Shown: positions 4,393 through 24,388 of the stretch, piece after piece
How positions within the stretch are numbered: position 1 is the stretch's first letter
Layout: every line of letters begins with the position of its first letter
Assembly: GCF_017302985.1 (NCBI RefSeq)
Contig: NZ_JAFIMU010000009.1
Coordinates: 186,001-250,000 of the forward strand
Direction of reading: 5' to 3'
DNA length: 64,000 nucleotides
Source of the DNA: Corallococcus macrosporus
GTDB lineage: Bacteria; Myxococcota; Myxococcia; Myxococcales; Myxococcaceae
The notes under the pieces: model-generated
What the model was told of the DNA's origin: nothing
Database searches by the model: none
What the model saw: the letters and a program-made list of their open reading frames with translations, nothing else
Made by a program: the position numbers and the translations under genes

Positions 4393-6096
4393 TCACTGTC
4401 CGCAGCGGCGGTCCGCGCCCGGGTCCAGCGGCGTGTGGGGGAGCACCCAGTCGATGAGGAACGGGCCGGAGGCCGACAGGGCCAGGTCGAGCGCGGGACC
4501 GATGTCCTGCTCCGTGCTCACCCGGACGGCTGGCACTCCCAGCGAGCGCGCGAGCTCCACGAAGTGGAGGGCCGGACGGGACAGGTCGAAGGAGCCGGGG
4601 AACGGATGCTCGGGGATGCCTCGCTCCTTCCAGTACTGGAGGAGGTTGAGGTCGAGCAGCCGGTAGCCCCCGTTGTTGCACACCACGAACTTCGCGCCGA
4701 TGCCGTGGCGCGCCGCCGTCCAGAGCGCCTGGATGGTGTACATGCTCCCGCCATCCCCGGTGAAGCCGATGACGGTCTTGTCCGGATGGGCCAGCTTCAC
4801 CCCCAGCGCCCCGGGAATCCCCACCCCGAGCGAGCCGCCCCGCGTCTGGAAGGAGTGCCCCGGCCTGCGCCCGGGCAGCGCGCGGGCCACCTCCGGCGAG
4901 AGCGTGAGCGCCTCGTCGAAGATGATGGCCTCGTCACCCACCCGCTTCGCCAGCTCGCGCAGGAAGAGGGCGGGTGGTGCCTCGCGTGTTTCACCGGGAG
5001 CCGTCCCGGCGGAGGCCCGTGCCCGCTCCAGTTCCTGTTGCTCCCGCGCGCGTCGCAGCCGCTCCGCCGCGGCCTCGCGCCGGGCCGGTGTCATCACCCA
5101 GGTCAGTGCCTCCGCGAGCGCCGCGAGCGTCCGCTTCGGGTCCGCCACGAGGCCCAGGTCCACCGGGAAGTTCTTGGCGATCTCATACGCGTCCAGGTCG
5201 ACATGGGCGACCCGGGCGCCGGGGCGGAAGACGCCGGAGAGGGCGGGGAAGACCTCGGGAAAGACATACGTGCCCGTGATGAGCACGGCGTCCGCCCGCG
5301 AGACGACCGCCGCGCTGTCCTTGCCGAACATGTGACCCAGCAGGCCCCGGAACAGCGGGTGGGCCGCGTCCATGTTCACCTCGGAGCTGTTGGCGCCCCA
5401 CACCTCGGCGCCGAGCAGCTCCGCCACCCGGGTCAGCTCCTCCTGGGCACCCGAGGCCGCCACGCCGTCACCGACGATGAGCAGCGGGTGCCGGGCCTCC
5501 GCGAGCAGCCGGGCCAGCGCCTTCACCGCCTCCGGCTCCGGCGCGGAGCGGGTGTCCAGCCGCGGCGTCGGGAAGACGGGCTCGTCGTTGGGCGCGTCGA
5601 GCACGTCCATGGGCAGGGAGACGAAGACGGGCCCCATGGGCGGTGTCGAGGCGATCTTGATGGCCCGCCGCAGCACCCGCAGCACCGAGCCCGCGTCGAC
5701 GACGCGCGTGGCCCACTTGGTCACCGGGCGGGCCATGGAGACGAGGTCGCCCGCCATCTGCGCGTCCATCGCGTCGTAGGCGAGTCCGGCCTCTCCCGCG
5801 AGCACCACGAGCGGGGTGTTGCCGCGCTTCGCCTGGTAGAGCATCCCGATGCCGTTGCCCAGCCCCACGCTGGAGTGGAGCTGCACGAACGCGGGCCGCC
5901 GCGTCGCCCGCGCGTGGCCATCCGCCATGGCCACGGCCACGGACTCGTGGAGGCCGAGGATGTATTGGATGGATGGCACGTCGCGCAGGGCATCGAGGAA
6001 GCCCTCCTCGACCGTGCCTGGATTGCCAAACAGATAGCGCGTCCCCTCCGCGGCGAGCTGTTCGAGGAGGGCGACGCAACCGGTTCGCTTCTTCAT
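4393..6096 (-). CDS. ThDP-dependent decarboxylase/acetolactate-synthase-like enzyme
   Basis: This 567-residue protein belongs to the thiamine diphosphate superfamily that includes benzoylformate and pyruvate decarboxylases and acetolactate synthase. The N-terminal Pyr domain carries the cofactor-activating Glu in GLHES (residue 51). A central domain follows. The C-terminal PP domain has the metal/ThDP motif starting GDGGSMYT and ending in CNNGG (about residues 446-475). I prefer the ATG at 6096 because AAAGGAG precedes it at ideal spacing; an in-frame ATG at 6126 coincides with the upstream stop. It is the last gene of the operon with GMC, AGE-like and DJ-1/PfpI genes. It probably cleaves a 2-oxo acid to an aldehyde or ligates it, but the substrate is unknown. 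Confidence 0.85.
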   Translation of the reverse strand: MKKRTGCVALLEQLAAEGTRYLFGNPGTVEEGFLDALRDVPSIQYILGLHESVAVAMADGHARATRRPAFVQLHSSVGLGNGIGMLYQAKRGNTPLVVLAGEAGLAYDAMDAQMAGDLVSMARPVTKWATRVVDAGSVLRVLRRAIKIASTPPMGPVFVSLPMDVLDAPNDEPVFPTPRLDTRSAPEPEAVKALARLLAEARHPLLIVGDGVAASGAQEELTRVAELLGAEVWGANSSEVNMDAAHPLFRGLLGHMFGKDSAAVVSRADAVLITGTYVFPEVFPALSGVFRPGARVAHVDLDAYEIAKNFPVDLGLVADPKRTLAALAEALTWVMTPARREAAAERLRRAREQQELERARASAGTAPGETREAPPALFLRELAKRVGDEAIIFDEALTLSPEVARALPGRRPGHSFQTRGGSLGVGIPGALGVKLAHPDKTVIGFTGDGGSMYTIQALWTAARHGIGAKFVVCNNGGYRLLDLNLLQYWKERGIPEHPFPGSFDLSRPALHFVELARSLGVPAVRVSTEQDIGPALDLALSASGPFLIDWVLPHTPLDPGADRRCGQ

Positions 6097-6125
6097 GGGG
6101 CCTGCTCCTTTCGTGCGCGGTTGCA

Positions 6126-7649
6126 TCACCACCCCCAGCGGCGCAGGCCGTGCTCCAGGACCTCCACCAGCTTCTCGCCCGTCAGCGTGGAGTCCGGGGT
6201 GGAGCGGCCCGTGACGAACGGGAAGTCCACGATGACCGACCGCTCCTGGCCGAAGTTGCCGTGGTACTGGCCCCCCGGCGCGGTCGCGTCGCGGAGGATG
6301 TACTCGAGCGGGTACGGCGGCGGGCCCATGTTGAAGTCGGTGCCCACGAAGCCGGTGCCGTCCTTGTAGTCGTACTCCAGGCAGTGGCCGGTCACGTGCT
6401 TGCCGCTCAGGATGCTCCGCCGGTCCTCCAGCTCGCGCGCGAACGCGAGGCAGGTCACGGCGTAGCACTCGGCGGCGATGGGCTTGCCCTGCTTCAGGAA
6501 GCCGAGGATGAGGTCGTGCACGCGCTGGTTGTTGGCCAGGTCGACGATGGGGCCGCTGCCGCCCACCAGCAGCAGCGCGTCGAACCGCTCGAAGGCGCGG
6601 AGGGCGTCCTCGCGCTCGCGGTAGTAGGCCTCCAGCGCACGCACCATCATGGGATGGCTGAAGTAGGGCCGCTCGGGCAGCAGCCTCGAGAGGTTCATCG
6701 GCGCATCGAGCAGCCGGGAGCGCTCGCCGCGCCCGGGGCCGGTGGCGTCCAGCAGGCCCACCTTGAGGGCCATCTGGGGGCTCGTCACCGGGCGCCCCAG
6801 GGGCGGGTCGACGTAGCTCGCATCCATGCTCGGAGGCAGGGCCACGGGCCTGCGTCCGTCCGGCGTGGCGAACTCGATGCGGTAGCCCTGGCGCTCGAAG
6901 ACCTCCAGCGGACCCACCAGCTCCTCGCCCCAGTAGCCGTGGCTGGAGAGGACCACGAGGATGCTGCGCGGAGCGCCCTTCACGGGCTCGGGAGCCACCG
7001 CCGGCACCTGGGGCACGCGCCGCTCCACGAGCCGCTGCTGGATGCGCTGGATGAACGCGGAGACGTTCATGAACGAGCGCCCCGTCACCAGGTCGCCGTC
7101 CACCACCACGCCGGATGGATCCGGGGTGTAGACGCCGCCCGCGTTGAGCACGTCGGCCAGGACGACCTCGTGGCAGATGACCTTGCGCCCCGCGAGCAGC
7201 TCCGGCGTGGGCGTCAAGAGCCAGAGGGCGTGGCACAGCACGCCCTTGACGATGTCCGGGTTGCGCATGGCGCGGCTGAAGAACTGCACGGCGGGAGAGG
7301 TGCGGACCATCTCCGGGCGGATGGGCAGCGGCCTGCCATCGGGCCCGTCGGGCGGGACGAAGTGGCGCAGCCGCACGCTGGGATAGTTGGCCGCCACGAG
7401 CACGGCCGCGTAGTCCTCCGGCGCGGCCTTGCGGATGTCGCGCGTGACGGTCAGCAGCTTGGGCGTGCCGCCCACCTCCTCGACCTCGCTCACGAGGTTC
7501 AGGAAGGGGCTGCCATTGAGGTTCGCGAGGAAGTGGACCTCCGCCCCCTCCTCCCCGAACCGGTCCCTGTACTGCGCGATCTCCTCCGCGATGAACTGGC
7601 TTTCGACGAGGACGGCGATCTTCTTTCCCTTCAGGGACGGGGCGCTCAT
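6126..7649 (-). CDS. Double DJ-1/PfpI-domain protein
   Basis: The 507-residue protein contains two class-I glutamine-amidotransferase-like domains in tandem. Domain 1 (about 8-215) has the PfpI-type nucleophile elbow VLCHALWLL (Cys139), an early Glu in VLVESQF, and the PfpI pattern GRKVICHEVVLADVLNAGG. Domain 2 (about 250-470) starts SILVVLSSHGYW, in the Hsp31 style, and has a second candidate nucleophile, Cys395, in AECYAV. Relatives include proteases, glyoxalase III-type hydratases and isocyanide hydratases. The start overlaps the stop of the AGE-like gene by ATGA, and the ThDP gene follows after 29 bases, so the products are probably translated together. Which activity it has is open. Confidence 0.8.
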   Translation of the reverse strand: MSAPSLKGKKIAVLVESQFIAEEIAQYRDRFGEEGAEVHFLANLNGSPFLNLVSEVEEVGGTPKLLTVTRDIRKAAPEDYAAVLVAANYPSVRLRHFVPPDGPDGRPLPIRPEMVRTSPAVQFFSRAMRNPDIVKGVLCHALWLLTPTPELLAGRKVICHEVVLADVLNAGGVYTPDPSGVVVDGDLVTGRSFMNVSAFIQRIQQRLVERRVPQVPAVAPEPVKGAPRSILVVLSSHGYWGEELVGPLEVFERQGYRIEFATPDGRRPVALPPSMDASYVDPPLGRPVTSPQMALKVGLLDATGPGRGERSRLLDAPMNLSRLLPERPYFSHPMMVRALEAYYREREDALRAFERFDALLLVGGSGPIVDLANNQRVHDLILGFLKQGKPIAAECYAVTCLAFARELEDRRSILSGKHVTGHCLEYDYKDGTGFVGTDFNMGPPPYPLEYILRDATAPGGQYHGNFGQERSVIVDFPFVTGRSTPDSTLTGEKLVEVLEHGLRRWGW

Positions 7650-9586: not shown

Positions 9587-9625
9587 GCGCGCTCGTGAGA
9601 GGGAGGTGCTGCGCTGTGGCTGTCT

Positions 9626-11074
9626 TTAGAGACAGGCATTGCGCGCTGTGACGTCGCGGGCGCGGAGGCCGTGCGCGGCCTGGAGCAGGTCTGCGCACTT
9701 CTCCGCGATCATCACGACGGCGGCGTGGCTGTCACCGGAGGGCAGCGACGGCATCACGCTGGCGTCCGCCACGCGCAGTCCGCCGATGCCGAAGACGCGC
9801 AGCTCCGGGTCCACGACCGCCATGGCGTCGAGCCCCATCCGGCAGGAGCCCGCGAACTGCTGGCCCGGTTCGGCGGCGCGCTGGACGAAGGTCCTCAATT
9901 GGGCCCGGCATCCCACCTCCGGGCCCGGCCGCAGCTCGCTGCCCACCTGACCGCGGAACGCCCGGGTGGCGAAGAGCTGCCGGGCCAGCTCCACGCCCTG
10001 CATCAGGCGCGTGAGGTCCGCCTCGACGGCCAGGTAGTTGGGATGGAGGAACGGCCTGGCGAGCGGGTCACGGCTCGCCAGGCGCACCCAGCCGCGCGAC
10101 AGCGGCCGCACCACGCCCGGCAGGATGCTCACGGCATGGGGAGCCTTCTGGCCGGGGGGCGTGTCGGGCGGTCCGTGGAGGAACGCCAGCCGCAGGTCGG
10201 GCCCGAGCCAGCCGGGAGTGGAGTGGCAGAAGAGGGCGCTCTCGCAGGGGCCCGGCGGGGACGGGACGGGCGTGGGCCCGGTGCGCTCCCGGACGACGCT
10301 CGTGACGACATGGTCGTGGAGGTTCTCGCCCACCCCGGGGAGGGCGGAGTGCATGGGGACGCCAAGCCGCTCGAGCCGCTCGGGCTGTCCGATGCCCGAG
10401 AGCAGGAGCAGCCTGGGTGACTCCAGGGCCCCGGCGCAGAGCACCACCTCCTCGACCGCGTACGCGCTCTCGCGCCGGCCCTGGTGGTGGAACTCCACGC
10501 CCATGCAATCCGAGCCCTCGAAGAGCAGCCGGGTGGCCTGGGCGCCCGTCACGAGCGTGAGGTGGGGCCGCGCCCGCGCCAGCAGCAGGGTCGCGACGTC
10601 GACGCCGTGACGCCGGTCCGGCTGGAGGTGGAGGTGGTGCCAGCCGGCGCCCTCCATCCGGGGCCCGTTGAAGTCCCCAACGAGGGGATGGCCCAATTCC
10701 TGGCAGGCTTCGATGAAGGCGCCGGAGGCGGGGCTCGCCGCATCGCGCGGCGCGCTCGTCACAGCCTCGGCTTCCATCCTCTGGAAGTAGGGCCGCACGC
10801 TCCGCCAGGCCCAGCCCGGGCATCCCTGGTGCGCCCAGGCATCGAAGTCCGACGGATGGCCGCGGACGTGGACCCGGGCGCAAGCGGTGCCGCGCGACGC
10901 GTGGAGCCGCCGGCCCTCGAGCGCCATCTGGGGCTCGGTGCGGTAGGCCCGGGCCGTCCGGTCGTCCTCCATCTCCAGGAGCAGCACGCGGACCTCGGGG
11001 GTCTCCGTCAGCCGGTGGGCGATGACCCGGCCCGCCGTGCCGGCTCCCACCACGATGAAGTCATAGGCGTTCAA
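9626..11074 (-). CDS. GMC oxidoreductase paralogue lacking key FAD/catalytic motifs
   Basis: The 482-residue protein is clearly a GMC-family flavoprotein: DFIVVGAGTAGRVIA dinucleotide motif, VLCAGALESPRLLLLSGIG signature and a VADASVMPSLPSGDSHAAVV end. It is closely related to the gene at 16044-17543 but eroded. The segment after LLLE is about 18 residues shorter, the GG-S-S loop of the first GMC signature is missing (RGTACARVHVRG instead), and the usual catalytic His before CRMG is Gln (QQFAGSCRMG). It leads the operon with the AGE-like, DJ-1/PfpI and ThDP genes. A palindrome (11092-11105) lies 17 bases before the start. It may be degenerate, or recruited to a non-oxidase role. Confidence 0.8.
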   Translation of the reverse strand: MNAYDFIVVGAGTAGRVIAHRLTETPEVRVLLLEMEDDRTARAYRTEPQMALEGRRLHASRGTACARVHVRGHPSDFDAWAHQGCPGWAWRSVRPYFQRMEAEAVTSAPRDAASPASGAFIEACQELGHPLVGDFNGPRMEGAGWHHLHLQPDRRHGVDVATLLLARARPHLTLVTGAQATRLLFEGSDCMGVEFHHQGRRESAYAVEEVVLCAGALESPRLLLLSGIGQPERLERLGVPMHSALPGVGENLHDHVVTSVVRERTGPTPVPSPPGPCESALFCHSTPGWLGPDLRLAFLHGPPDTPPGQKAPHAVSILPGVVRPLSRGWVRLASRDPLARPFLHPNYLAVEADLTRLMQGVELARQLFATRAFRGQVGSELRPGPEVGCRAQLRTFVQRAAEPGQQFAGSCRMGLDAMAVVDPELRVFGIGGLRVADASVMPSLPSGDSHAAVVMIAEKCADLLQAAHGLRARDVTARNACL

Positions 11075-11091
11075 TGTCTTGTCCCTCGCAG

Positions 11092-11105
11092 TGTCAGGAC
11101 TGACA
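11092..11105. promoter_or_regulatory. Palindrome TGTCAG-GA-CTGACA upstream of GMC operon
   Basis: A perfect 6-bp inverted repeat with a 2-base centre lies 17 bases upstream of the GMC operon's first ATG, in the divergent region shared with the SnoaL-like gene at 11244. Position and symmetry suggest a dimeric repressor site. The binding protein is unknown. Confidence 0.4.
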
Positions 11106-11126
11106 TGGAGCGCGGGCGCTCATGCC

Positions 11127-11147
11127 GTGACGCCGCATCACACCGGG
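11127..11147. promoter_or_regulatory. Shared cluster motif, copy A
   Basis: The sequence GTGACGCCGCA followed by TCACACCGGG matches, with one substitution and two single-base gaps, the element at 17999-18021. Both sit in divergent intergenic regions next to GMC-containing operons. The GTGA...TCAC arms form an imperfect inverted repeat. A shared operator or activator site is inferred. Confidence 0.5.
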
Positions 11148-11243
11148 CACCTGGCGGCTCTTCCATGAGGCCTGTCCAGCGGCGCACCTGCCGCGTCAAT
11201 GACAGGCGTTCCCCAAAGACAGACACACGAAAGGCGTCAGCCC

Positions 11244-11684
11244 ATGCTCAATGAGAACCCCGCGAACGTCGAGTCCTCCCGGAGGGCGCGGTCCACGAGG
11301 GCGCGGATGGTGGACACGGTCTACAGCTACTTCGACGAGGTTCTGGGCCAGGGCCGGCTGGAGCTCATCGACGCGCTGACGACGCCCGGCATCACCCTGC
11401 GCGGCCCCGCGCGGCCGGAGTCGGGCGCCGGGCGGGAGGGCCTGCGGCGGTGGGTGCGCAGGCTGCGAGGGAGCGCGCCCGGCATCCAGGTCGCCATGGA
11501 GCGGCGCGCCATCCAGGGCAACAAGGTGGCGGTGCGCTGGCGTGCCGAGGGCTTGCCCCCGGGGCCGGTCCCCCGGGGCCTGTACGTCTTCGTGTTCGAG
11601 GAGGACCGGGTGGCCGAGCTCTGGATGCACGACCTCGACGCGGACTCCTGCTCCGACGCGGAGCTTCCGCTGCGCGCGGCGTGA
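11244..11684 (+). CDS. SnoaL/NTF2-like protein
   Basis: The product of about 146 residues begins MLNENPANV; an in-frame ATG at 11199 would add 15 residues. The core runs from VDTVYSYFDEVLGQGRLELIDAL to GLYVFVFEEDRVAELWMHD, the usual helix-then-sheet cone of SnoaL-like polyketide-cyclase proteins. These small pockets serve as isomerases, cyclases, hydrolases or plain ligand binders. It is divergent from the GMC operon and lies 170 bases ahead of the kinase-ATPase gene. It is one of ten such genes in this island and less similar to the others. Confidence 0.7.
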   Translation: MLNENPANVESSRRARSTRARMVDTVYSYFDEVLGQGRLELIDALTTPGITLRGPARPESGAGREGLRRWVRRLRGSAPGIQVAMERRAIQGNKVAVRWRAEGLPPGPVPRGLYVFVFEEDRVAELWMHDLDADSCSDAELPLRAA

Positions 11685-11854: not shown

Positions 11855-15583
<3,729 letters not shown>

Positions 15584-15639: not shown

Positions 15640-16047
15640 TCATTCGTCCTCGTACCCCTGGCTGATCTCGATGATGTTGCCCTCCGGGTCGGCTATCCAC
15701 GCGGACCGCCAGCCTTCGATGAAGTCATCGAAGTCCATGGGCTTGAGCGTCACGCGCGCATCGGCGCCCAGCTCCGCCAGCTTCGCGTCCACGTCGTCGA
15801 CGTTGAACGCGATGTGCCGCCAGCCGGGATACCAGGGCCCGTCCGCGTCCGGCGCAATCACCGGTGCGGGCTGCCGCGCCTGGAAGAGCTCCAGGGAGAG
15901 GCTGCCGGACCTGAGGAACACGATCTGCTCGTTCCCCAGCGACACGACGCGGACCCGCTGGAAGCCGAAGTGCTTCGTGTAGAACTGCTCGATGCGCAGC
16001 GGATCCGCGCAGGCCAGGGCGAGGTGCAGGAACTCGGGTCGGGTCAT
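15640..16047 (-). CDS. VOC/glyoxalase-fold protein with intact metal ligands
   Basis: The 135-residue protein has two beta-alpha-beta-beta-beta modules. The metal-ligand positions of glyoxalase-type enzymes are all present: His in LHLALACAD, Glu in LSLELFQ, His in WRHIAFNVDD and Glu in DPEGNIIEISQ. An isomerase, dioxygenase or epimerase of the VOC superfamily is likely. Its ATG overlaps the stop of the GMC gene (ATGA), so it is the last gene of the operon SnoaL-like, GMC, VOC. Its substrate probably belongs to the same pathway as the GMC enzyme. Confidence 0.8.
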   Translation of the reverse strand: MTRPEFLHLALACADPLRIEQFYTKHFGFQRVRVVSLGNEQIVFLRSGSLSLELFQARQPAPVIAPDADGPWYPGWRHIAFNVDDVDAKLAELGADARVTLKPMDFDDFIEGWRSAWIADPEGNIIEISQGYEDE

Positions 16048-17543
16048 GGACGGAGGCCCTCCAGGTGCTCGGCCTTGAGCAGGTCGGCGCAGCGCTCGGC
16101 GATCATGACGATGCCCGCGTGACAGTTCCCCGAGGGGACGGACGGCATCACGCTGGCGTCCGCGACGCGCAGGCCCTCCACGCCAAACACGCGCAGCTTC
16201 GGATCCACGACGGCCATCGCATCGAGCCCCATCCGGCAGGAGCCGGCCTGGTGGTGATACGAGTCCGCGCTCTCCTGGAGGAAGGCCTGGAGCTGGGCGC
16301 GGGTCTTGACCTTCGGTCCGGGCATCCGTTCGTCGCGCACCCAGCCGGAGAACGCGCGCGTCGCGAAGAGCTCCCGGGCCATCTCCACGCCCTGCATCAG
16401 CCGCTTCCTGTCCGCTTCGTTCCCCAGGTAGTTGGGATGGACGAGCGGCCTGTCCAACGGGTCGCCGCTGGCCAGCCGCACCCAGCCGCGCGCCAGCGGC
16501 CGCACCACCCCGGGCAGGATGCTGATGGCGTTCGGATACCGCAGGCCGACGGTGCCATTGAATGGCACGTGGACGAAGGCGAGCTGCAGGTCGGGCCCCA
16601 CCTGGTCCGGATGGGATTTCCAGAAGAGGGCGCACTCGGACAGGTTGAGCCGTGGCGCGGGGACGCGGGGGGCGCACTCGCGGATGACGCCGGAGAGGAC
16701 GTGGTTGTGGAAGTTCTCGCCGACGCCGGGGAGGGCCGCCCGCACGGGGATGCCGAACCGTGCGAGCTGCTCGGGCTGACCGATGCCCGACAGCATGAGC
16801 AGCTTGGGCGACTCGATGGCTCCACACGAGACGACCACCTCCCGCGTGGCGTAGGCGCGCTCGAGCCCGCCCTGGCGGTGATACTCGACGCCCACGCAGC
16901 GCTCGCCCTCGAAGATCAGCCGGGTGGCGTGGGCCTCCGTCACGAGCGTGAGGTTGGGCCGCGCCAGGGCCGGGAGCAGGTAGGCCGCGTTGACGCTGTG
17001 GCGCTTGCCGTCCCGGATGTTGAGGTGATGCCACCCGGCCCCCTCCATCGTCGGGCCGTTGAAGTCCCCGGTCGAAGGAAAGCCCAGCTCCTGGCAGGCC
17101 TCCAGGAACGCCTGGGAGGTCGGGTTCGGTCCGTGGTCCTTGGCGTTCGTCACCGGAAGCTGGCGCTCCAGCTTCTGGAAGTAGGGCAATACATCCGAGT
17201 AGGCCCAGCCGTGACATCCCTGACGGGCCCAGCCGTCATAGTCAGACGGGTGCCCGCGGACATGCATCATGATGTACAGGTTGGAACTGCCGCCCATCAG
17301 CTTTCCGCGAGGCTCCTGGGTGACCCGGCCGCCAAGCGCCGCCTGGGGCACGCTGGTGTATCCCCAGTCAATGGACGAGCCGAGCATCAGGGGCCACGCC
17401 GAGGGGCGCGTGACCTCCTCCGGTATCTGGTCGCCGCCCGCCTCCAGGAGCAGCACCCGGCACCCGAGATCCTCACTCAGCCGGCTGGCGATGACCGCTC
17501 CCGCCGAGCCGCCTCCGACCACGATGAAGTCATGGACAGTCAT
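16044..17543 (-). CDS. GMC family FAD-dependent oxidoreductase (intact copy)
   Basis: The 499-residue protein oxidises an alcohol or sugar-like substrate with FAD. It shows the dinucleotide fold DFIVVGGGSAGAVIASRL, LLLEAG, the first GMC signature (GKLMGGSSNL), the second signature (SCGAIESPKLLMLSGIG), the catalytic His in YHHQAGSCRMG and a second His in SGNCHAGIVMIAE. There is no signal peptide, so it should be cytoplasmic. It starts 7 bases after the SnoaL-like gene and overlaps the VOC gene. It is a clear paralogue of the gene at 9626-11074 but keeps all expected motifs. Confidence 0.9.
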   Translation of the reverse strand: MTVHDFIVVGGGSAGAVIASRLSEDLGCRVLLLEAGGDQIPEEVTRPSAWPLMLGSSIDWGYTSVPQAALGGRVTQEPRGKLMGGSSNLYIMMHVRGHPSDYDGWARQGCHGWAYSDVLPYFQKLERQLPVTNAKDHGPNPTSQAFLEACQELGFPSTGDFNGPTMEGAGWHHLNIRDGKRHSVNAAYLLPALARPNLTLVTEAHATRLIFEGERCVGVEYHRQGGLERAYATREVVVSCGAIESPKLLMLSGIGQPEQLARFGIPVRAALPGVGENFHNHVLSGVIRECAPRVPAPRLNLSECALFWKSHPDQVGPDLQLAFVHVPFNGTVGLRYPNAISILPGVVRPLARGWVRLASGDPLDRPLVHPNYLGNEADRKRLMQGVEMARELFATRAFSGWVRDERMPGPKVKTRAQLQAFLQESADSYHHQAGSCRMGLDAMAVVDPKLRVFGVEGLRVADASVMPSVPSGNCHAGIVMIAERCADLLKAEHLEGLRP

Positions 17544-17550
17544 GGTGTCC

Positions 17551-17949
17551 TCACTCGCTCTCGCGGGCCTGGCGCGGCTGCGGTTCGAGGATGGGGGCGA
17601 AGGGCACGCTGTCGTGGAAGTTCGCCATGTAGGCGATCTTCCCGTCCTGGATGAGGAAGTAGTTGGCGACCTCCGCTTCAATGGGCTTGCCGCCGGCGCT
17701 GGTCGCGGAGATGTGAGACACCACGCAGGCCTGGGCACCGTCGATGACGAAGTACCGGGGGGTGTTCTGGAAGCGTGAGTACACCTGCTGGATACCGGAG
17801 ACGGCCCCCCGCAGCGCGGTGAGGCCTTCCAGATGCCCGGCCAGCTGCTCGTCCATGACGAGGTGCTCATCGAAGAGCCCGAGCCAGCCCTCCCAGTCTC
17901 CCGCATTGACACACTCGTAATACCGGTCGATCACGCTACGGACGCTCAT
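17551..17949 (-). CDS. SnoaL/NTF2-like protein, first gene of the GMC-VOC operon
   Basis: The 132-residue product starts MSVRSVIDRYYECV, preceded by a near-consensus AAGGAGG. The core WEGWLGLFDEHLVMDEQLAGHLEG and the later VANYFLIQDGKIAYMANFHD are typical of the SnoaL-like superfamily. It is followed after 7 bases by the intact GMC gene, so it likely handles the substrate or product of that oxidase. Its divergent upstream region carries the shared motif at 17999-18021. Confidence 0.8.
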   Translation of the reverse strand: MSVRSVIDRYYECVNAGDWEGWLGLFDEHLVMDEQLAGHLEGLTALRGAVSGIQQVYSRFQNTPRYFVIDGAQACVVSHISATSAGGKPIEAEVANYFLIQDGKIAYMANFHDSVPFAPILEPQPRQARESE

Positions 17950-17998
17950 GGTTCCTCCTTCTGCTTTCGGGAGGAGATAGAGCGGGGTGGAGTCCGCT

Positions 17999-18021
17999 GT
18001 GACGGCGCAATCACAACCGGG
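17999..18021. promoter_or_regulatory. Shared cluster motif, copy B
   Basis: GTGACGGCGCAA followed by TCACAACCGGG matches the element at 11127-11147 apart from one substitution and two inserted A residues. It lies between the divergent starts of the 17949 and 18043 genes. A site for a common regulator of both GMC units is inferred. Confidence 0.5.
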
Positions 18022-18042
18022 AGGGGCGCGCTCTAGTCCCGC

Positions 18043-18489
18043 ATGAAGACTCCCATCACCCTCGAGCAGATCCGGCGATTCGCTTCCGCGTGGTACCAGG
18101 CCCTGGACCAGCATGTGCCCGTGGAGGAGTGCTTCAGCCTCGTGGCTGAGGACGACCTGCGCATGCTGTTCCCGGATGGAGACATCCGGGATTTCGACAG
18201 CTTCAAGACCTGGTACGAGCGGGTCACCCATCTCTTCTTCGACGAGAACCACAACATCCAGAGCCTCGAGGCCACCGTCCGCGACGACGAGGCCGAGGTG
18301 AAGATCGTCGTGGGATGGCAGGCCAGCTGGTTCGAGCCGCCCGCCGCGAAGAGCAAGCGCGTGTCCCTGAACGCCACCCAGGGCTGGCTGCTGCGCCGCT
18401 CCATCCGGAACGTCCACGGGCTGGAGATCGTCTACTACGACGCGACGGTCGAGCCCTTCATGTACGCGCCGGGCTTCGCGCGCCTGTAA
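18043..18489 (+). CDS. SnoaL/NTF2-like protein
   Basis: The 148-residue product starts MKTPITLEQIRRFASAWYQAL, with a DDLRMLFPDGDIRDFDSF segment and a beta-rich second half (EAEVKIVVGWQASWFEP). The pattern fits an NTF2-like fold, in a branch with an extended C-terminus (YDATVEPFMYAPGFARL). It is a single-gene unit, divergent from the SnoaL-GMC-VOC operon and closed by the hairpin at 18496-18528. Function unknown. Confidence 0.7.
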   Translation: MKTPITLEQIRRFASAWYQALDQHVPVEECFSLVAEDDLRMLFPDGDIRDFDSFKTWYERVTHLFFDENHNIQSLEATVRDDEAEVKIVVGWQASWFEPPAAKSKRVSLNATQGWLLRRSIRNVHGLEIVYYDATVEPFMYAPGFARL

Positions 18490-18495
18490 CGGACA

Positions 18496-18528
18496 GCACC
18501 GGGCGTGAGCAGTGCTCACGCCCGGTGC
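18496..18528. terminator. Strong bidirectional hairpin terminator
   Basis: A perfect 15-bp stem (GCACCGGGCGTGAGC with its complement) with an AGT loop separates the convergent genes ending at 18489 (+) and 18544 (-). There is no long T tract. Confidence 0.75.
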
Positions 18529-18543
18529 CGCCCCTTCAATCCA

Positions 18544-18960
18544 TTACACCGGCGACCAGAACTGGTCGTACTGGGCGGTGCCATCACCCATGATGGCCCC
18601 GCGGCCTTCCGTGACCTTTCCGTCACGCCACCGCAGGACGTGGACGGCGGTGATGTCCAGCTGCTTGGCGGGATTGCCCGCGCGCTGCCCGCGGTTGCGC
18701 GTCACGTCCGCCGAGTACTCATCGCTGGTGGTGGTGCAGAGGTTCTCCATGTGGAAGCTGTTCCCGGACAGCTCACCCACCTGGCGCATGAACCCGAGGA
18801 ACCCGTCCAGGCCCTCCTTCCAGCCTGACAGCAGGTTGTGGCCGGGCACATACCAGCGCATGTCTTCGGCCCAGTACTGCTCGATTTGATTCCGGTCTCC
18901 GCTCATCAAGGCCGCGTAGGCGTTCGCGACCTGCTCGGGTGTGACTGTGGGCAAGGTCAT
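18544..18960 (-). CDS. SnoaL/NTF2-like protein
   Basis: The 138-residue product starts MTLPTVTPEQVANAYAALMSG and carries WAEDMRWYVPGHNLLSG, matching SnoaL-like proteins in which a PGHxxLxG turn lines the pocket. AAGGAGA sits directly before the ATG, which overlaps the preceding gene's stop (ATGA). It is the last of five consecutive SnoaL-like genes on this strand. The second half (DITAVHVLRWRDGKVTEG) is the canonical central sheet. Substrate unknown. Confidence 0.8.
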   Translation of the reverse strand: MTLPTVTPEQVANAYAALMSGDRNQIEQYWAEDMRWYVPGHNLLSGWKEGLDGFLGFMRQVGELSGNSFHMENLCTTTSDEYSADVTRNRGQRAGNPAKQLDITAVHVLRWRDGKVTEGRGAIMGDGTAQYDQFWSPV

Positions 18961-19400
18961 TCTCCTTGGGCCTGGCTGGCGAGCCGCTGGGGGATGGGCG
19001 CGAGCTGGTGGGACTGGTTGAAGAACTGGTCCGCCGCGTGCTGGTCGCTGAGGTAGACCTGGACGTCCCGGATGCGGCCGTCCACGACGTGGTAGTGGGT
19101 GCAGTTCCTCGCGTCGAGCCGGGCCGTGCCCGCCTGCCCGTAGCCGCGATGGACCTCGACGACGAAGTCCTCACCGAAGACGTCGATCTTGATGAGGTCG
19201 ACCTTGATGTTGGACTTCACCAGCTGCGCGAAGAAGGCGATGACCTCGTCCGCGCCGGACTTGGTGCCCGCGAGCGGGTGGTGGCCCGGCAACCGCCACT
19301 CCAGCTCCTCGGAGAAGACCTCCCGCTTGAGCGTCTCCATGTCACCGCGGTTGAAGCAGTCATACATCTTCTGGACCAATGCAACGTTGGGGTGTGTCAT
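18957..19400 (-). CDS. SnoaL/NTF2-like protein
   Basis: The 147-residue product starts MTHPNVALVQKMYDCFNRGD, with AAAGGAC as ribosome site. It has the same ELEWRLPGHHPLAGTKSG turn as its downstream neighbour, and these two form the closest pair in the row. The sheet segment NCTHYHVVDGRIRDVQVYLSDQ is typical of the fold. It overlaps the 18544-18960 gene by 4 bases and follows the 19469-19906 gene after 68 bases. Confidence 0.8.
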   Translation of the reverse strand: MTHPNVALVQKMYDCFNRGDMETLKREVFSEELEWRLPGHHPLAGTKSGADEVIAFFAQLVKSNIKVDLIKIDVFGEDFVVEVHRGYGQAGTARLDARNCTHYHVVDGRIRDVQVYLSDQHAADQFFNQSHQLAPIPQRLASQAQGE

Positions 19401-19468
19401 GTCTGTCCTTTCTGGACAACAGCGTGTCTGGGGTTCCAATGGGCTGCTGGGAACGCCTGCCGCCCGGC

Positions 19469-19906
19469 TCAGCCCGGCCGCGCCGGAATCACGCCCAGCT
19501 GCTGCATCAGCCCGACCAGGTCCTGCTCCAGGTACAGCTCGCGGATCTTCCCGTCGACGATGCGGAAGACGTCCGCGCCGCCCATCTCCATGCGCTTGCC
19601 CGTCGCCGGCATCCCCATGAAGGACCCGGTGTTCGTGCCCCGGAGCTTGTAGATGATGGCCACGAACTCGCCGTTCTCGTCGTCGGCGACGACCTCGTTC
19701 TCGAAGCGCATGTCGGGGAAGGCCTGGTGCAGCGAGGCGCCGTAGGCCTTGATGCCCTCCCGGCCCTGCCGCAGCTCCGGCGGGACGTGGCGGCTGTGGA
19801 TGACCGCGTCCTCGCTGAAGAGCTCATCCACCGCCGCGGCGTTGCCCTGCTCCAGCCACTCGCTGTGCGCCCGAAGCCCCAGGTTCTGTTCCTTCTTCGT
19901 CATCAT
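19469..19906 (-). CDS. SnoaL-like (ester-cyclase-like) protein
   Basis: The 145-residue product starts MMTKKEQNLGLRAHSEWLEQG after a GAGGAG site. The pattern LRGTNTGSFMGMPATGKRMEM, then DVFRIVDGKIRELYLEQD, is the hallmark of the ester-cyclase-like branch of the SnoaL family. The tail LVGLMQQLGVIP is shared with several other proteins in this island, pointing to local duplication. It is the middle gene of the five-gene row. Confidence 0.85.
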   Translation of the reverse strand: MMTKKEQNLGLRAHSEWLEQGNAAAVDELFSEDAVIHSRHVPPELRQGREGIKAYGASLHQAFPDMRFENEVVADDENGEFVAIIYKLRGTNTGSFMGMPATGKRMEMGGADVFRIVDGKIRELYLEQDLVGLMQQLGVIPARPG

Positions 19907-19955
19907 GTGTCCACTCCTCTGGATGGGTGTATGGGTTTGAAACACGGGGTCGCTG

Positions 19956-20384
19956 CTAGTGCGCGCCCGGCGAGGGCGCACCGCCGATCTGCTGGAGCAG
20001 GCCCAGCAGATCCGGCACGCCCCAGTGCTCCTGGATCTTCCCGTTGGCGACGCGGAACACGCCGAGCGACGCCCAGACGGCCTGCTTGCCGCTGGGCGGA
20101 ACGCCCATGAACACACCCTGATGGGTGCCCCGGCCGGTGACGTGTGACGTGACGAAGTCCCCTTCGCCCACCAGGTGCTCGATGGTGAAGTGGACGTCGG
20201 GGAAGGCACCGCGGAACAGCGAGGGAATCATCCGCACGGCGGCCAGCCCGGGAGGGGCGCCGGGGGGAAGGCTGTGATCGACGTAGTCGGGCGCGAAGAG
20301 GTCCGGGATGGGATCCAGGTTGCCCTGGTTGATGACCTCCTCCACGAAGCGACGGTAGACGGCCTTGTTGTCTTCAATCGACAT
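19956..20384 (-). CDS. SnoaL-like (ester-cyclase-like) protein
   Basis: The 142-residue product starts MSIEDNKAVYRRFVEEVINQGN. It carries APDYVDHSLPPG, RGTHQGVFMGVPPSGK, VFRVANGKIQEHWG and the tail LLGLLQQIGGAP. This is a textbook ester-cyclase-like SnoaL protein and the clearest reference member of the local family. It lies 49 bases upstream of the 19469-19906 gene and 32 bases after the 20417-20866 gene. Confidence 0.88.
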   Translation of the reverse strand: MSIEDNKAVYRRFVEEVINQGNLDPIPDLFAPDYVDHSLPPGAPPGLAAVRMIPSLFRGAFPDVHFTIEHLVGEGDFVTSHVTGRGTHQGVFMGVPPSGKQAVWASLGVFRVANGKIQEHWGVPDLLGLLQQIGGAPSPGAH

Positions 20385-20416
20385 GGTTCGTTGTCCTGGG
20401 ATGTGAGGGTGAGGGG

Positions 20417-20866
20417 TCAGCGGGAACCGGGGCCGCTCCGCCGCGGATCGGGCGCGAGCCCCATCTGCTGCGCCACGCCCAGCGTGTCGATGGAGCCCCA
20501 GCGCTCGACGATCTTTCCGCCGACGATGCGGAAGACGTTGATGCCGTTGAGCTGGAGCTCCTTGCCCGACGGGGGCGCGCCGAACAGCGGAGCCCCCCGG
20601 TGGGTGCCTCGCGCGACCCAGTGGTGCGCCATCTTGTCCCCCTCGCCGAACAGCACGTCGTGGGAGACGTGGAGGTCGGGCATGGCGGCCCGGAACATGC
20701 CCACCACCGCCAGCGGCCCCGCGATCCCCGGAGGCAGCCCGGGGATGGGGGGCGCGTGGACCACCGCGTCCTTGCCGATGAACTCCGCTTCCTTGTCCAG
20801 GTTCCCCTTGTTCCAGACCTCGTCGAAGTAGCGGCGGATGAACTCCTTGTTCTGCTCCACGGACAT
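20417..20866 (-). CDS. SnoaL-like (ester-cyclase-like) protein, first of five-gene row
   Basis: The 149-residue product starts MSVEQNKEFIRRYFDEVWNKGN after TGGAGAG. It has ARGTHRGAPLFGAPPSGK, NVFRIVGGKIVERWGS and the tail TLGVAQQMGLAP. It leads the row of five minus-strand SnoaL-like genes and is divergent from the hydrolase gene at 21092. The inverted repeat at 20897-20918 lies about 30 bases upstream of its start. Confidence 0.88.
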   Translation of the reverse strand: MSVEQNKEFIRRYFDEVWNKGNLDKEAEFIGKDAVVHAPPIPGLPPGIAGPLAVVGMFRAAMPDLHVSHDVLFGEGDKMAHHWVARGTHRGAPLFGAPPSGKELQLNGINVFRIVGGKIVERWGSIDTLGVAQQMGLAPDPRRSGPGSR

Positions 20867-20896
20867 GCAGTCTCTCCAGGTTGAAGGGATGATTCC

Positions 20897-20918
20897 GGCG
20901 GTTCACCGACGAACCGCC
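20897..20918. promoter_or_regulatory. Inverted repeat GGCGGTTC-N6-GAACCGCC
   Basis: A perfect 8-bp inverted repeat with a 6-base spacer lies in the divergent region between the SnoaL-like row (start 20866) and the hydrolase operon (start 21092). A dimeric regulator site is the likeliest reading. A second imperfect repeat pairs GTGACGGTCC (20964-20973) with GGACCGCGTCAC (21023-21034). Confidence 0.45.
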
Positions 20919-21091
20919 GACGCGTTTCGTGCGTGAGCCATTGGAGACAGCGGGGGCCGAAGCGTGACGGTCCGGGCCGCGCCTGCCTGCTCTCCGGACG
21001 AGGCGCGCCCCGACCTTCGCGGGGACCGCGTCACATCCGTGGCTCCCGGGGTCCGTATCTCGTCGCAAGCCATCCCCCATCCAGGAGCCCC

Positions 21092-22126
21092 ATGACCCTC
21101 GCCTCTTCACGTCCCGCGCATGTCCGCATCCGCCCATCCCTCACAGCCGCGGAGCCGGAGGCCGAAGCGCCCGTGCCCGGCGCGTTCCTGCGCGCCGATG
21201 CCAGCCGCCGGGTTCCCGTCCGGTTCCAGGGGAGGGGCGCCTCGCTGGCCGGGCACCTCTACCGTCCTCGTGGCGCGGCCAGCACGGAGCGCACGCCCGG
21301 CATCGTCCTCTGTGGCCCCATTGGCAGCGTCAAGGAGCTGGTCGTGCCTCACTACGCCGAACGGCTGGCGGACGCGGGCTACACGGTGCTGACCTTCGAT
21401 CCCCGGGGCTTCGGCGAGAGCGAGGGCACACCCCGCTTCCACCATGACTCCAACCGCGTGGTGGACGACTACGCGAGCGCCGTCAGCTACCTGCTCACGC
21501 GCGACGACGTCGACCCCGCGCGCGTCGCGGCGCTCGGCGTGTGCATGGGCGGTGGCCATGCCGTCTCGCTGGGCGCGCGCGACAAGCGGCTCAAGGCCGT
21601 GATTGCCATTGGTGGCGCCTACAACACCGGCGGCATGCTCCAGAAGTTCATGGGCGTGGACGGGGCCGCCGCGTTCTGCCGGAGCATCAACGACATCCTC
21701 CAGCAGCAGTACGTGAACGGAGACGTGCGCTACGTCCCCGCCGTGGCGCCAGGGCTGTCCAAGGAGGTGCCGCTCGCGGTGATGCCCAACGCGGAGGCCC
21801 ACGGCTTCTACACGCGGAGCCAGGCGGACGCGCCCACCTGGGCGAACTTGATGACGGTGGGCTCCATCCTGTCGCTCTTCTCCTACAACGCGGTCGCCCA
21901 GGCCCCGCTGGTGGCCCCCACGCCGCTCATGGTCATCCACGGCACCCGGGACGGGACGATGCTGCCCGAGTACGCCCAGCAGGTCTTCGAGGCCGCGGTG
22001 GGGCCCCGGGAGCTGGTCTGGATCGACACCCAGAACCACGTCCAGCTCTACGACCAGCAGCCCTACGTGGACGAGGCCACCGCGCACGCCATCCGGTGGT
22101 TGGACCAGCACCTGGGCCGTCCGTAG
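21092..22126 (+). CDS. Alpha/beta hydrolase with Cys nucleophile (dienelactone-hydrolase-like)
   Basis: The 344-residue protein starts MTLASSRPAHVRI after AGGAG; an in-frame upstream start at 20933 lacks conserved sequence. The fold is clear: oxyanion region LCGPIGSVKE, FDPRGFGESEG, nucleophile elbow GVCMGGGH with Cys instead of Ser, Asp in IHGTRDGTML and His in DTQNHVQLYD. A Cys in G-x-C-x-G is the dienelactone hydrolase pattern, though the rest resembles larger hydrolases and transferases linked to polyketide pathways. It heads a plus-strand operon with a tautomerase and two double SnoaL-like genes, consistent with lactone or ester chemistry. Confidence 0.82.
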   Translation: MTLASSRPAHVRIRPSLTAAEPEAEAPVPGAFLRADASRRVPVRFQGRGASLAGHLYRPRGAASTERTPGIVLCGPIGSVKELVVPHYAERLADAGYTVLTFDPRGFGESEGTPRFHHDSNRVVDDYASAVSYLLTRDDVDPARVAALGVCMGGGHAVSLGARDKRLKAVIAIGGAYNTGGMLQKFMGVDGAAAFCRSINDILQQQYVNGDVRYVPAVAPGLSKEVPLAVMPNAEAHGFYTRSQADAPTWANLMTVGSILSLFSYNAVAQAPLVAPTPLMVIHGTRDGTMLPEYAQQVFEAAVGPRELVWIDTQNHVQLYDQQPYVDEATAHAIRWLDQHLGRP

Positions 22127-22195
22127 CCATCACAGCCGCCAGACGAAGGGTCCATTCACTGCCTCAACAATCCCTCACGCAAAGGATGTCGTGAA

Positions 22196-22501
22196 ATGCC
22201 AATCATCTCCATCCGCTTCATCAAGGACGTGGTCGCGACCCCGGAGCAGAAGAAGGAGCTGGTCTCCCGGATGACGGACACCTTCGTCAGCGTCCTCGGA
22301 GACGTGGTCCGTCCCTTCACGTACTGCCTCATCGAGGAGGTGCCGCAGGGGCAGTGGGGCATCGCCGGCGTGCCGATGCCGGACCTGCCCTTCCTGACGG
22401 GGGAGGAGTACGCGCGGATCTACAAGGACTCGAGCGACGTCATGAAGGCCGCCATCGCCCAGATGAGCGCGGCCAACGACAACGAGCCCTCGGATTCGTA
22501 G
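22196..22501 (+). CDS. 4-oxalocrotonate tautomerase-family protein
   Basis: The 101-residue protein starts MPIISIRFIKDVVATPEQKKEL after AAAGGA. Removal of Met leaves an N-terminal Pro, the general base of this family. The segment TPEQKKELVSRMTDTFVSVLG matches the first helix. It is longer than the classic 62-residue enzymes. It lies 69 bases after the hydrolase and 33 bases before a double SnoaL-like gene, so a keto-enol or unsaturated-acid step in the same pathway is likely. Confidence 0.85.
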   Translation: MPIISIRFIKDVVATPEQKKELVSRMTDTFVSVLGDVVRPFTYCLIEEVPQGQWGIAGVPMPDLPFLTGEEYARIYKDSSDVMKAAIAQMSAANDNEPSDS

Positions 22502-22534
22502 CGCACGGCCCCGCTTGGGAAAGGACGGATCCTC

Positions 22535-23443
22535 ATGGGAAATGAGCAGAACAAGGCCCTCTTGCGCCGCTGGCTGGACGAAGGCTGGTGCCAGGGCAAC
22601 GTCGACGTCGCGGACGAGCTGATCGCCACGGACTTCGTGGTCCACGGCGCGGGAGGGCAGGCCATTCCCTCCGGCCGCCAGGGCGTCAAGGACCTGGTGC
22701 GGGAGTGGCGCCGGGGCTTCCCGGACGGCCAGATGCGGGTGCTGGACGAGCTTTGCGAAGGAGACCTCGTCGGTGTCCGGCTTCTCTGGACGGGAACCCA
22801 CCTGGGCCCGTTCTACGGGGTCGCGCCGAGCGGCCGTCGGGTCACCTGCGTCTCGCTGGGCCTCGACCGGATCCAGGATGGGAGGATCAGCGAGGGCTGG
22901 GGCGAGCTGGACATGCTCGGCCTCATGCAGCGCATCGGCGGTGTGCCGGGGCCGGCGTCCAGCGCGCCACCCGCCCCGGGTCTGGCGGCGCCGACCCGGC
23001 CCGGGCCGGCCCCCTCGTCGGTCGCGGAGAACAAGGCGGTCGTGCGCCGCGTCCTCCAGGCCACCGGGGATTGGGACCTCGAGGCGATCCGTGAGGCGTG
23101 TGACACGGACCGCTACGTCGAACACGCCCCGGGCCGCAGCAGCCTCCCGCTCGAAGAGGCGCTCAGGGCGGACTCGCAGTGCCGGGCATCCCTGCCGGAC
23201 CTCCGCTTCACCCTCGACGCGGAGCGGATGGTGGCGGAAGGAGATCGCGTGCTCGTCCGCGGCACCTTCTCCGGGACGCACACGGGGGCGCCGCTGTTTG
23301 GCGCGCCTGCTTCCGGCAGGAGGCTGCTGTGGGGAGGCATCGACATCTTCCGCGTCTCGGAGGGCCGGCTGACGGAGCGCTGGCGGTGCTCGGACACGCT
23401 GAGCCTGATGCAGCAGGCGACCGCCGCGGTTCCGAAGCCGTAG
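22535..23443 (+). CDS. Tandem double SnoaL-like protein
   Basis: The 302-residue protein is a fusion of two SnoaL-like domains joined by a Pro/Ala-rich linker (about 145-165). Domain 1 (MGNEQNKALLRRWLDEGW to MLGLMQRIGGVPGP) keeps the family pattern TGTHLGPFYGVAPSGRR. Domain 2 (AENKAVVRRVLQATGDW to TLSLMQQATAAVPKP) keeps SGTHTGAPLFGAPASGRR. The ribosome site is AAAGGAC. The domains resemble the single proteins on the other strand, so the fusion probably arose from tandem duplicates. It may act as a built-in dimer. Confidence 0.85.
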   Translation: MGNEQNKALLRRWLDEGWCQGNVDVADELIATDFVVHGAGGQAIPSGRQGVKDLVREWRRGFPDGQMRVLDELCEGDLVGVRLLWTGTHLGPFYGVAPSGRRVTCVSLGLDRIQDGRISEGWGELDMLGLMQRIGGVPGPASSAPPAPGLAAPTRPGPAPSSVAENKAVVRRVLQATGDWDLEAIREACDTDRYVEHAPGRSSLPLEEALRADSQCRASLPDLRFTLDAERMVAEGDRVLVRGTFSGTHTGAPLFGAPASGRRLLWGGIDIFRVSEGRLTERWRCSDTLSLMQQATAAVPKP

Positions 23444-23479
23444 CGCGGTTGCGCACCCACTTCTGACTCAAGGACAGTC

Positions 23480-24388
23480 ATGACCACTGAATACAAGCAG
23501 CTCGTCATCCGGTATGTGGAAGAGGTCAACCGGGGCAACTTCGACGCGTTTGACACACTGGTCGATCCGGCGTTCATCGACCACGATCCCATCCCCGGGC
23601 AGCAGCCGGGCATCCCCGGGCTGAAGGACGCCTACCGGCAGTTCCTGACGGCCTTCCCCGACATCCACTTCACCTTCGAGGACGTCTTCTGCGAGGGCGA
23701 CCTCGTCGTGGGCCGTGGCGTCATCCACGGCACCCATCGGGGGACGTTCATGGGGATGGCCCCGACCGGGAGGCGCGTGCGCTGGACGGGGACGCGCCTG
23801 TTCCGCGTGCGCGGCGGCCAGGTCACCGAGGGATGGATCAACCTGGATCTGCTCGGGCTGGTGGCCCAGCTCAGCGCGCCCTCGGCGCAGCCGCTGCCCG
23901 CCGAGGTGGGGCCGGGGGACATCGACCTCCTCGCGAGGCCGGTCCCGCCCAACGGGGGAACGCCGGAGCAGAACAAGCCCGTCTTCCGCCGGATGATCAT
24001 GGAGCTGTGGAACCAGAAGTGGCTCGACATGGCCGACGTGCTCTTCACGCCCGGCGCCACGAGCCCCACCGCGCCGAACCTGCCCCCGGGGCCCAGCGGG
24101 GTGAAGCAGCTCGCCGGCATGTTCCTGAAGGCCATCCCGGACCTTCACATCGAAATCGAGCAACTGGTCGCGGAAGGGGACCGCGTGTTCGGCAGGTTGC
24201 GCGAGACCGGGACGCACACCGGCGACCTGGTGACTCCGGCCGGCATCATCAAGGCCACGAACAAGCCCGTCAGCTTCACGGAGATGGCCATCGTGAGGTT
24301 CGAGGACGGGAGGATCGCGGAGAGCTGGTACGACGTGGACATGGCGGGCCTGCTCATGCAGATCGGCGCGGTTCCCGGCCCGTCGTAG
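23480..24388 (+). CDS. Tandem double SnoaL-like protein, second copy
   Basis: The 302-residue protein is a second two-domain fusion, 36 bases downstream of the first. Domain 1 (MTTEYKQLVIRYVEEVNRGN) contains DPAFIDHDPIPG, HGTHRGTFMGMAPTGRR and LFRVRGGQVTEGWINLD. Domain 2 (about 155-302, PEQNKPVFRRMIMELWNQ) departs in the middle (TGTHTGDLVTPAGIIKATNK) but ends DMAGLLMQIGAVPGP like its relatives. AAGGAC precedes the ATG. It is the last gene of the hydrolase-tautomerase operon. Confidence 0.85.
   Translation: MTTEYKQLVIRYVEEVNRGNFDAFDTLVDPAFIDHDPIPGQQPGIPGLKDAYRQFLTAFPDIHFTFEDVFCEGDLVVGRGVIHGTHRGTFMGMAPTGRRVRWTGTRLFRVRGGQVTEGWINLDLLGLVAQLSAPSAQPLPAEVGPGDIDLLARPVPPNGGTPEQNKPVFRRMIMELWNQKWLDMADVLFTPGATSPTAPNLPPGPSGVKQLAGMFLKAIPDLHIEIEQLVAEGDRVFGRLRETGTHTGDLVTPAGIIKATNKPVSFTEMAIVRFEDGRIAESWYDVDMAGLLMQIGAVPGPS

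Follow-up and report, generated by a model that had tools for sequence, protein, structure and literature searches.

A SnoaL-rich island of Corallococcus macrosporus represents a horizontally mobile metabolic cassette in its myxobacterial form

The stretch of the Corallococcus macrosporus genome analyzed here (64,000 nucleotides, positions 186,001 to 250,000 of contig NZ_JAFIMU010000009.1, assembly GCF_017302985.1; hereafter, the window) contains an island with a conspicuous array of small SnoaL/NTF2-like proteins, which we identify as the version of a horizontally mobile metabolic cassette that is found in myxobacteria. The core of the cassette, denoted module A, consists of two DJ-1 proteins (DJ1-C and DJ1-N), a thiamine diphosphate (ThDP)-dependent enzyme, an AGE-superfamily protein and a GH13 enzyme. 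A second block, module B, which is absent from some genomes, comprises the NTF2-like protein orf148, Sno3, Sno2, the GMC oxidoreductase GMC2 and a VOC protein, with Sno4 being more variable. The cassette is represented in Myxococcota, Actinomycetota, Chloroflexota, Cyanobacteriota, Deinococcota, Bacteroidota and Pseudomonadota, and is nearly always located beside genes for glycogen or maltose enzymes. We are nearly certain that it is real, mobile and alpha-glucan-associated; it probably turns a storage-glycogen sugar into a small molecule.

An earlier note on this DNA had delineated a candidate undescribed, SnoaL-defined island with two GMC units between positions 4393 and 24388, and had cautioned that homologs scattered in relatives would point to a chance neighborhood. 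The homologs are co-localized in seven phyla and no description of the gene combination was found in the open full-text literature, which misses most subscription journals, so that the "undescribed system" stands. The positions given are indeed outer gene ends by gene calling, but the boundary is wrong, given that the conserved GH13 gene and the genes for an LtrA membrane protein and a sigma-70-like protein also belong to the island. The definition has to be revised as well: the near-universal core is DJ1-ThDP-AGE-GH13, and one of the two GMC proteins, GMC1, is degenerate.

Conservation, transfer and genomic context of the cassette

A search with GMC2 retrieved loci from Myxococcota, Actinomycetota, Chloroflexota and one gammaproteobacterium in which most of the same genes are present. 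Because GMC2 had been bait and evidence at once, the test was repeated with the ThDP gene as the sole bait. At E <= 1e-140, this gene was detected in 7 of 195 Myxococcota, 29 of 247 Streptomyces and 5 of 251 Chloroflexota genomes and, among broadly sampled Actinomycetota (296) and Pseudomonadota (349), in the seed genome only. The surroundings of most of these matches were examined, and 39 ThDP-baited genomes or records were counted: DJ1-C is present in all 39, DJ1-N in 38, the AGE protein in 34, a GH13-family protein in 33 (a count that takes in any GH13 relative), GMC in 24, orf148 in 22, VOC in 21 and Sno2 in 20, with several of the absences being due to broken contigs or cut stretches. In most of the non-myxobacterial loci, the gene order is DJ1-C, ThDP, orf148, Sno3, Sno2, GMC, DJ1-N, VOC, AGE, followed by regulators and GlgX (STAS, GlgX, STAS, anti-sigma ATPase, SpoIIE, MinD). 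This order is near-constant in Streptomyces, Planobispora, Deinococcus and Chloroflexi, and similar in Runella.

Each of these families is common by itself, and many GMC relatives (38-47% identity) encoded in other genomes of this family lack an adjoining cassette gene (within short flanks), as would be the case for a chance neighborhood of common soil-bacterial genes. Nevertheless, the presence of DJ1-C at all 39 ThDP-baited loci, the near-constant order across phyla and the distant ThDP relative of Rhodovastum (34% identity), which has none of the cassette partners at its locus, refute this possibility, leaving it a negligible probability.

The ThDP gene is also found on plasmids, with 14 matches at 52-63% identity (the next one is at 34%), two of which are on plasmids typed as conjugative. 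In the ThDP tree, the seven myxobacterial sequences form one clade (support 99/100), whereas Thiosymbion (Gammaproteobacteria) joins Paractinoplanes (Actinomycetota), and Gemmobacter (Alphaproteobacteria) joins a Chloroflexota genome, both with 100/100 support. Given these cross-phylum joins and the plasmid copies, the cassette has been horizontally transferred.

With respect to the alpha-glucan context, the GH13 protein of the Streptomyces cassettes qualifies as a true GlgX under the curated cut-off (695 vs 640.9 bits); GlgE and maltokinase are encoded beside 11 Streptomyces cassettes and TreS beside four, MalQ beside two Nostoc cassettes and glycogen synthase beside the Runella cassette. GlgX is flanked by STAS, HATPase and SpoIIE genes (with MinD). 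The STAS genes are present in loci of Actinomycetota, Chloroflexota, Deinococcota and Bacteroidota, and SpoIIE is there too where the stretch reaches far enough. The recurrence of the STAS/anti-sigma/SpoIIE set in several phyla suggests stress control. The myxobacterial form lacks this set; it has the sigma-like gene and, in Corallococcus, a kinase.

Additional genes were noticed in individual cassettes. Two Chloroflexota cassettes (L050:749-4060; L052:2361-5673) contain, between ThDP and orf148, a molybdopterin (xanthine-dehydrogenase-like) gene, a further oxidoreductase, along with a second gene. A response-regulator domain fused to a thioredoxin-reductase-like flavin adenine dinucleotide (FAD) enzyme adjoins actinobacterial cassettes (L030:12516-14120; L027:3826-5556). 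On plasmid pNsp_a of Nostoc sp. ATCC 53789, two genes for Nif11-like leader peptide precursors separate EthD from GMC in the cassette (L041:12685-13345), and the Nostoc C052 cassette has an NHLP leader peptide gene in its vicinity (L082:6069-6785); a link of these leader peptide genes to a modified peptide is possible.

Modules, SnoaL array and accessory genes of the island

The closest named locus is that of C. llansteffanensis, with 82-95% protein identity for most of the island genes (Table 1); the genome G015, from the same genus, yields identical matches. All the partners named in the earlier note are present; it had overlooked the kinase-AAA gene within its span and the GH13 gene just outside.

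Table 1. Genes of the C. macrosporus island, in window coordinates
Gene or product	Position	Strand	Assignment and features
Sigma-70-like, 200 aa	90..596 (start about -6, just before the window)	+	Myxococcota island-associated
LtrA membrane protein	579..1724	-	accessory; PF06772, 1.4e-84
GH13 enzyme, branching-enzyme/TreZ-like	1863..4322	+	core module A
ThDP enzyme, benzoylformate-decarboxylase-like	4393..6096	-	core module A
Fused double DJ-1	6126..7649	-	N half PfpI-type (C139, H140); C half type-1-GATase-like (Cys at residue 395)
AGE-superfamily protein, 646 aa	7646..9586	-	core module A; GlcNAc_2-epim match
GMC1	9626..11074	-	degenerate local paralog of GMC2, 61% identity
Sno1	11307..11684	+	SnoaL, lineage-specific
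Ser/Thr kinase-AAA fusion, 1197 aa	11990..15583	+	accessory; C. llansteffanensis ortholog 87%
VOC metalloprotein	15640..16047	-	module B; H8, E53, H78, E127 conserved (four metal ligands)
GMC2	16044..17543	-	module B; predicted catalytically intact GMC oxidoreductase; H431, N473 conserved across phyla
Sno2	17551..17949	-	module B; NTF2 enzyme paired with GMC2; cross-phylum ortholog group
orf148	18043..18489	+	module B; divergent NTF2-like; cross-phylum ortholog group, clade support 100
Sno3	18544..18960	-	cross-phylum NTF2 ortholog group
Sno4	18957..19367	-	cross-phylum NTF2 ortholog group
Sno5, Sno6, Sno7	19469..20866 (19469-19906, 19956-20384, 20417-20866)	-	ester-cyclase-type SnoaL expansion, PF07366
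a/b hydrolase	21173..22126	+	accessory; Cys nucleophile motif G-V-C-M-G; 57% relatives beside two other myxobacterial cassettes
Tautomerase	22196..22501	+	accessory; 78-95% in Pyxidicoccus and C. llansteffanensis
Sno8, Sno9	22535..24388 (22535-23443, 23480-24388)	+	double-domain SnoaL proteins, lineage expansion

Within module A, the GH13 protein shows 80-92% identity among the island-bearing myxobacteria and 52-55% to the proteins of the Thiosymbion and Nostoc cassettes; elsewhere, its place is occupied by a GlgX-type GH13. The cassette orthologs of the ThDP enzyme in other phyla show 52-65% identity, and the ThDP-binding motif (G447-D448-G449..N474-N475), the catalytic Glu (E51) and the first catalytic His (H74) are conserved. 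The two DJ-1 proteins, which are fused in myxobacteria and Thiosymbion and encoded by separate genes in most of the other phyla, both retain the Cys across phyla. The AGE protein has three invariant histidines (His331, 409 and 556) and a GHN-W motif that aligns with glucose 2-epimerase. In its AlphaFold model (predicted local distance difference test, pLDDT, 82; predicted template-modeling score, pTM, 0.88), the first ~105 residues are beta-rich, and the best fold matches are cellobiose/glucose 2-epimerases, with a target-normalized TM of about 0.7. As modeled, this protein is an (alpha/alpha)6 barrel with catalytic His residues, which places it in the 2-epimerase/isomerase superfamily with a predicted activity of this type.

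GMC2 is a choline/alcohol-oxidase-like protein that contains the active-site His and Asn (H431 and N473). In GMC1, a Q has replaced the catalytic His and a D the Asn, and the GGSSN motif and an N-terminal segment are gone, so that the presence of two working GMC units has to be rejected. The loss of His and Asn is common to the GMC1 copies of two other Corallococcus and hence is not recent; because the gene remains open, GMC1 may be a pseudoenzyme. Neither protein reaches the cut-off for the mycofactocin-type GMC, MftG (324 and 226 vs 387 bits), and this assignment was dismissed.

The count of 10 SnoaL/NTF2 genes with 12 domains in the earlier note withstood gene calling and Pfam searches: SnoaL/SnoaL_2 matches cover nine genes and 11 domains (Sno1 to Sno9, with two domains each in Sno8 and Sno9), and the tenth gene, orf148, which has no Pfam match itself, is included because its Streptomyces ortholog matches SnoaL_2 (6.6e-8). 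Of the 21 SnoaL_2 matches over the cut-off in the 9.8-Mb genome, 11 fall within a 13-kb part of the island, with 0.03 expected under a simple binomial that takes no account of tandem duplication; the clustering is far beyond chance. In the NTF2 tree, obtained by a quick method from a short alignment, Sno2, Sno3, Sno4 and orf148 form four cross-phylum clades (support of 99, 99, 96 and 100, respectively, in the Shimodaira-Hasegawa-like approximate likelihood ratio test), and Sno1 and Sno5-Sno9 belong to a distinct group of the PF07366 type, which has expanded in Anaerolineae and Runella as well and the inner order of which is poorly resolved. Thus, only four of the 10 genes are cross-phylum orthologs, and the other six are lineage expansions; recent tandem duplication of all SnoaL genes was rejected given that the four clades are old separate groups. 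Sno5, Sno6 and Sno7 show 32-43% identity among themselves. The model of Sno2 (pLDDT 90) has limonene epoxide hydrolase and TerC as the nearest Protein Data Bank structures, at ~20% identity, which indicates fold likeness only. Purifying selection acts throughout the island, as estimated by comparison of this genome with relatives using a simple counting method for the ratio of nonsynonymous to synonymous substitution rates (dN/dS). It is strongest for Sno2 (0.18), Sno4 (0.18), Sno3 (0.20), the a/b hydrolase (0.20), orf148 (0.21) and ThDP (0.24), and weakest for GMC1 (0.54), the kinase (0.53) and Sno8 (0.52). The SnoaL array, the most eye-catching feature of the island, is largely a peripheral part of it.

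Among the accessory genes, the sigma-like gene, the C. llansteffanensis ortholog of which matches Sigma70_r2 (6.4e-8), adjoins LtrA and GH13 in the Pyxidicoccus loci and in two further genomes (G004/G015). LtrA is encoded in three of 16 Corallococcus genomes, all three of them island-bearing; distant LtrA relatives were also seen near actinobacterial cassettes (L034, L036). The six strand runs of the island fit the "at least four transcription units" of the earlier note. The absence of polyketide synthases, non-ribosomal peptide synthetases and terpene synthases that it reported was confirmed among the window genes scanned (most, not all, of the called genes). An Rfam scan gave no matches, and a promoter and terminator scan yielded nothing exceeding chance. 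In a search for the empty site, the TetR-amidohydrolase flank on the right (26108-28137) proved to be conserved in island-free relatives; the left junction is unmatched, with the island contigs of relatives being broken. Farther to the right, the window includes ~3.5 kb without a confidently called gene (32795-36291), where the GC content drops to 0.60 (0.64-0.70 in the surroundings).

A candidate pathway and competing explanations

Our favored reading is that the cassette encodes a mobile, stress-regulated pathway that oxidizes and rearranges an alpha-glucan-derived sugar. We place it a little below an even chance, because most of the evidence applies equally to reactive-carbonyl defense, glycoside catabolism and synthesis of a sugar-derived antibiotic. 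Under this scheme, the GH13 enzyme, together with the glycogen and GlgE enzymes observed in the neighborhood, would free a glucose or malto-oligosaccharide unit from an alpha-glucan; the AGE protein, judging by the fold and the conserved histidines, would isomerize the sugar or epimerize it at C2; and GMC2, with its intact active site, would oxidize a hydroxyl to yield a keto-sugar. The NTF2 enzymes, in the place of which the other variant of the cassette has an EthD protein, would then catalyze enolization, elimination or hydration, with the extra SnoaL copies perhaps widening or tuning this rearrangement step. An alpha-dicarbonyl or 2-oxo acid would be handled by the VOC and DJ-1 proteins, in which the metal site and the Cys are observed, and decarboxylated or carboligated by the ThDP enzyme. 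The pathway for a small molecule envisaged in the earlier note remains plausible.

The putative replacement of the NTF2 enzymes comes from the distribution of the genes. Loci that lack module B often contain EthD, and over 35 tree tips the NTF2 set alone is present in 23, EthD alone in eight, neither in four and both in none (Fisher p = 2e-5, uncorrected for relatedness). All five informative phylogenetically independent pairs are opposite (sign test, p = 0.06). This pattern suggests that the EthD and NTF2 enzymes do an equivalent job and that module B and EthD are exchangeable back ends; such a swap amounts to an experiment of nature from which the chemistry could be learned.

Several observations weigh against the favored pathway. 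The exclusion of NTF2 and EthD was noticed post hoc, and the sign test that takes relatedness into account reaches just the value given above. Module A is found without module B in about a dozen loci of Streptomyces, Nostoc, Gemmobacter and Chloroflexota, and co-location does not show that the two modules share one metabolite. Apart from the breadth of the GH13 count, the GH13 proteins of myxobacteria, Thiosymbion and one Nostoc are branching-enzyme-like and not orthologous to the GlgX of the other cassettes. In the aligned region, the ThDP enzyme seems to be missing the residue that we take to be the second active-site His of benzoylformate decarboxylase. Finally, the order of the steps is one that we infer, and the AGE, GMC, NTF2, VOC and DJ-1 families are functionally broad.

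A pair of DJ-1 domains and a VOC protein whose metal site is complete, next to STAS/SpoIIE partners and in a sugar context, would also be expected of a defense against reactive carbonyls and glycation, in which dicarbonyls and keto-sugars that arise from sugars under stress are jointly removed, with DJ-1 and VOC acting as glyoxalase or deglycase and the rest as scavengers, without a dedicated product. We consider this unlikely given that it leaves unexplained a ThDP enzyme of the decarboxylase type that is universal in the cassette, an FAD alcohol oxidase, which would itself generate carbonyls, and divergent NTF2 arrays under purifying selection. To much the same degree improbable is a substrate-induced island for the breakdown of an aromatic glycoside or a carbohydrate-like compound of external origin, involving, for example, C3/C2 oxidation and elimination. 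Tautomerase, a/b hydrolase, EthD and SMP-30 genes within or adjoining the cassettes are compatible with this alternative, and glycoside-3-oxidases are known among bacterial sugar oxidases (PMC11650716). However, the conserved set includes neither a transporter nor a substrate-binding gene, and the partner-switch regulators and storage-glycogen enzymes better suit an internal substrate. Less probable still is a specialized-metabolite cluster without polyketide or non-ribosomal peptide synthases, which might make a sugar-derived antibiotic or pigment by analogy with the fungal glucose-glucosone-cortalcerone route, where, as that route is cited in PMC11650716, a glucose unit is oxidized and a rearranging enzyme follows. 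The sporadic, plasmid-borne spread and the expansion of small tailoring-type enzymes in single lineages fit such a cluster, but no export or resistance gene is conserved.

Extending the favored pathway to its full scope, we tentatively propose, with somewhat less confidence than in the pathway as such, a new bacterial route, partly plasmid-spread and present in at least seven phyla, from storage alpha-glucan to a stress-related metabolite by sugar oxidation and rearrangement, with the NTF2/SnoaL set and EthD interchangeable for the same step. A conserved mobile multi-enzyme cassette that spans seven phyla and has no described function marks a missing pathway, and the tie to glycogen and stress-type regulators offers a direct way in to its function.

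Comparison with known systems

The SnoaL/SnoaL2-type polyketide cyclases and hydroxylases share the fold and the Pfam families with the proteins of the array: Sno5-Sno9 are PF07366 proteins, and among solved structures, Sno9 matches ester cyclases and SnoaL relatives. The island differs from the SnoaL cyclase systems in that it has no polyketide synthase among the scanned window genes, and its Sno proteins stay far below the NCBIfam SnoaL methyl-ester-cyclase cut-off of 200 bits (Sno8, 46.3; Sno9, 45.4; Sno6, 40.4), so that a polyketide/SnoaL cyclase cluster was rejected. The likeness to the fungal glucose-glucosone-cortalcerone (pyranose 2-oxidase) route, namely a flavin-dependent oxidation of a glucose unit that precedes a rearrangement, is an analogy only, and GMC2 is not a pyranose oxidase (21 vs 545 bits). 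Benzoylformate decarboxylase is the full-length best match of the ThDP gene, which has the same E51 and H74 but scores below the curated equivalog cut-off (335 vs 493 bits), with the second active-site His apparently missing.

The GlgE/GlgB/GlgX-TreS-maltokinase loci of Actinomycetota resemble the cassette in that, in most phyla, it includes a GlgX-type GH13, and 11 Streptomyces cassettes have GlgE and maltokinase (with or without TreS) alongside. To our knowledge, the known glycogen loci lack the ThDP, DJ-1 pair, AGE, GMC, VOC and NTF2 genes. Glycogen turnover does not account for these genes, which are constant or frequent partners in the cassette. Thus, all the component families are known, and it is their combination that sets the cassette apart as an apparently undescribed system.

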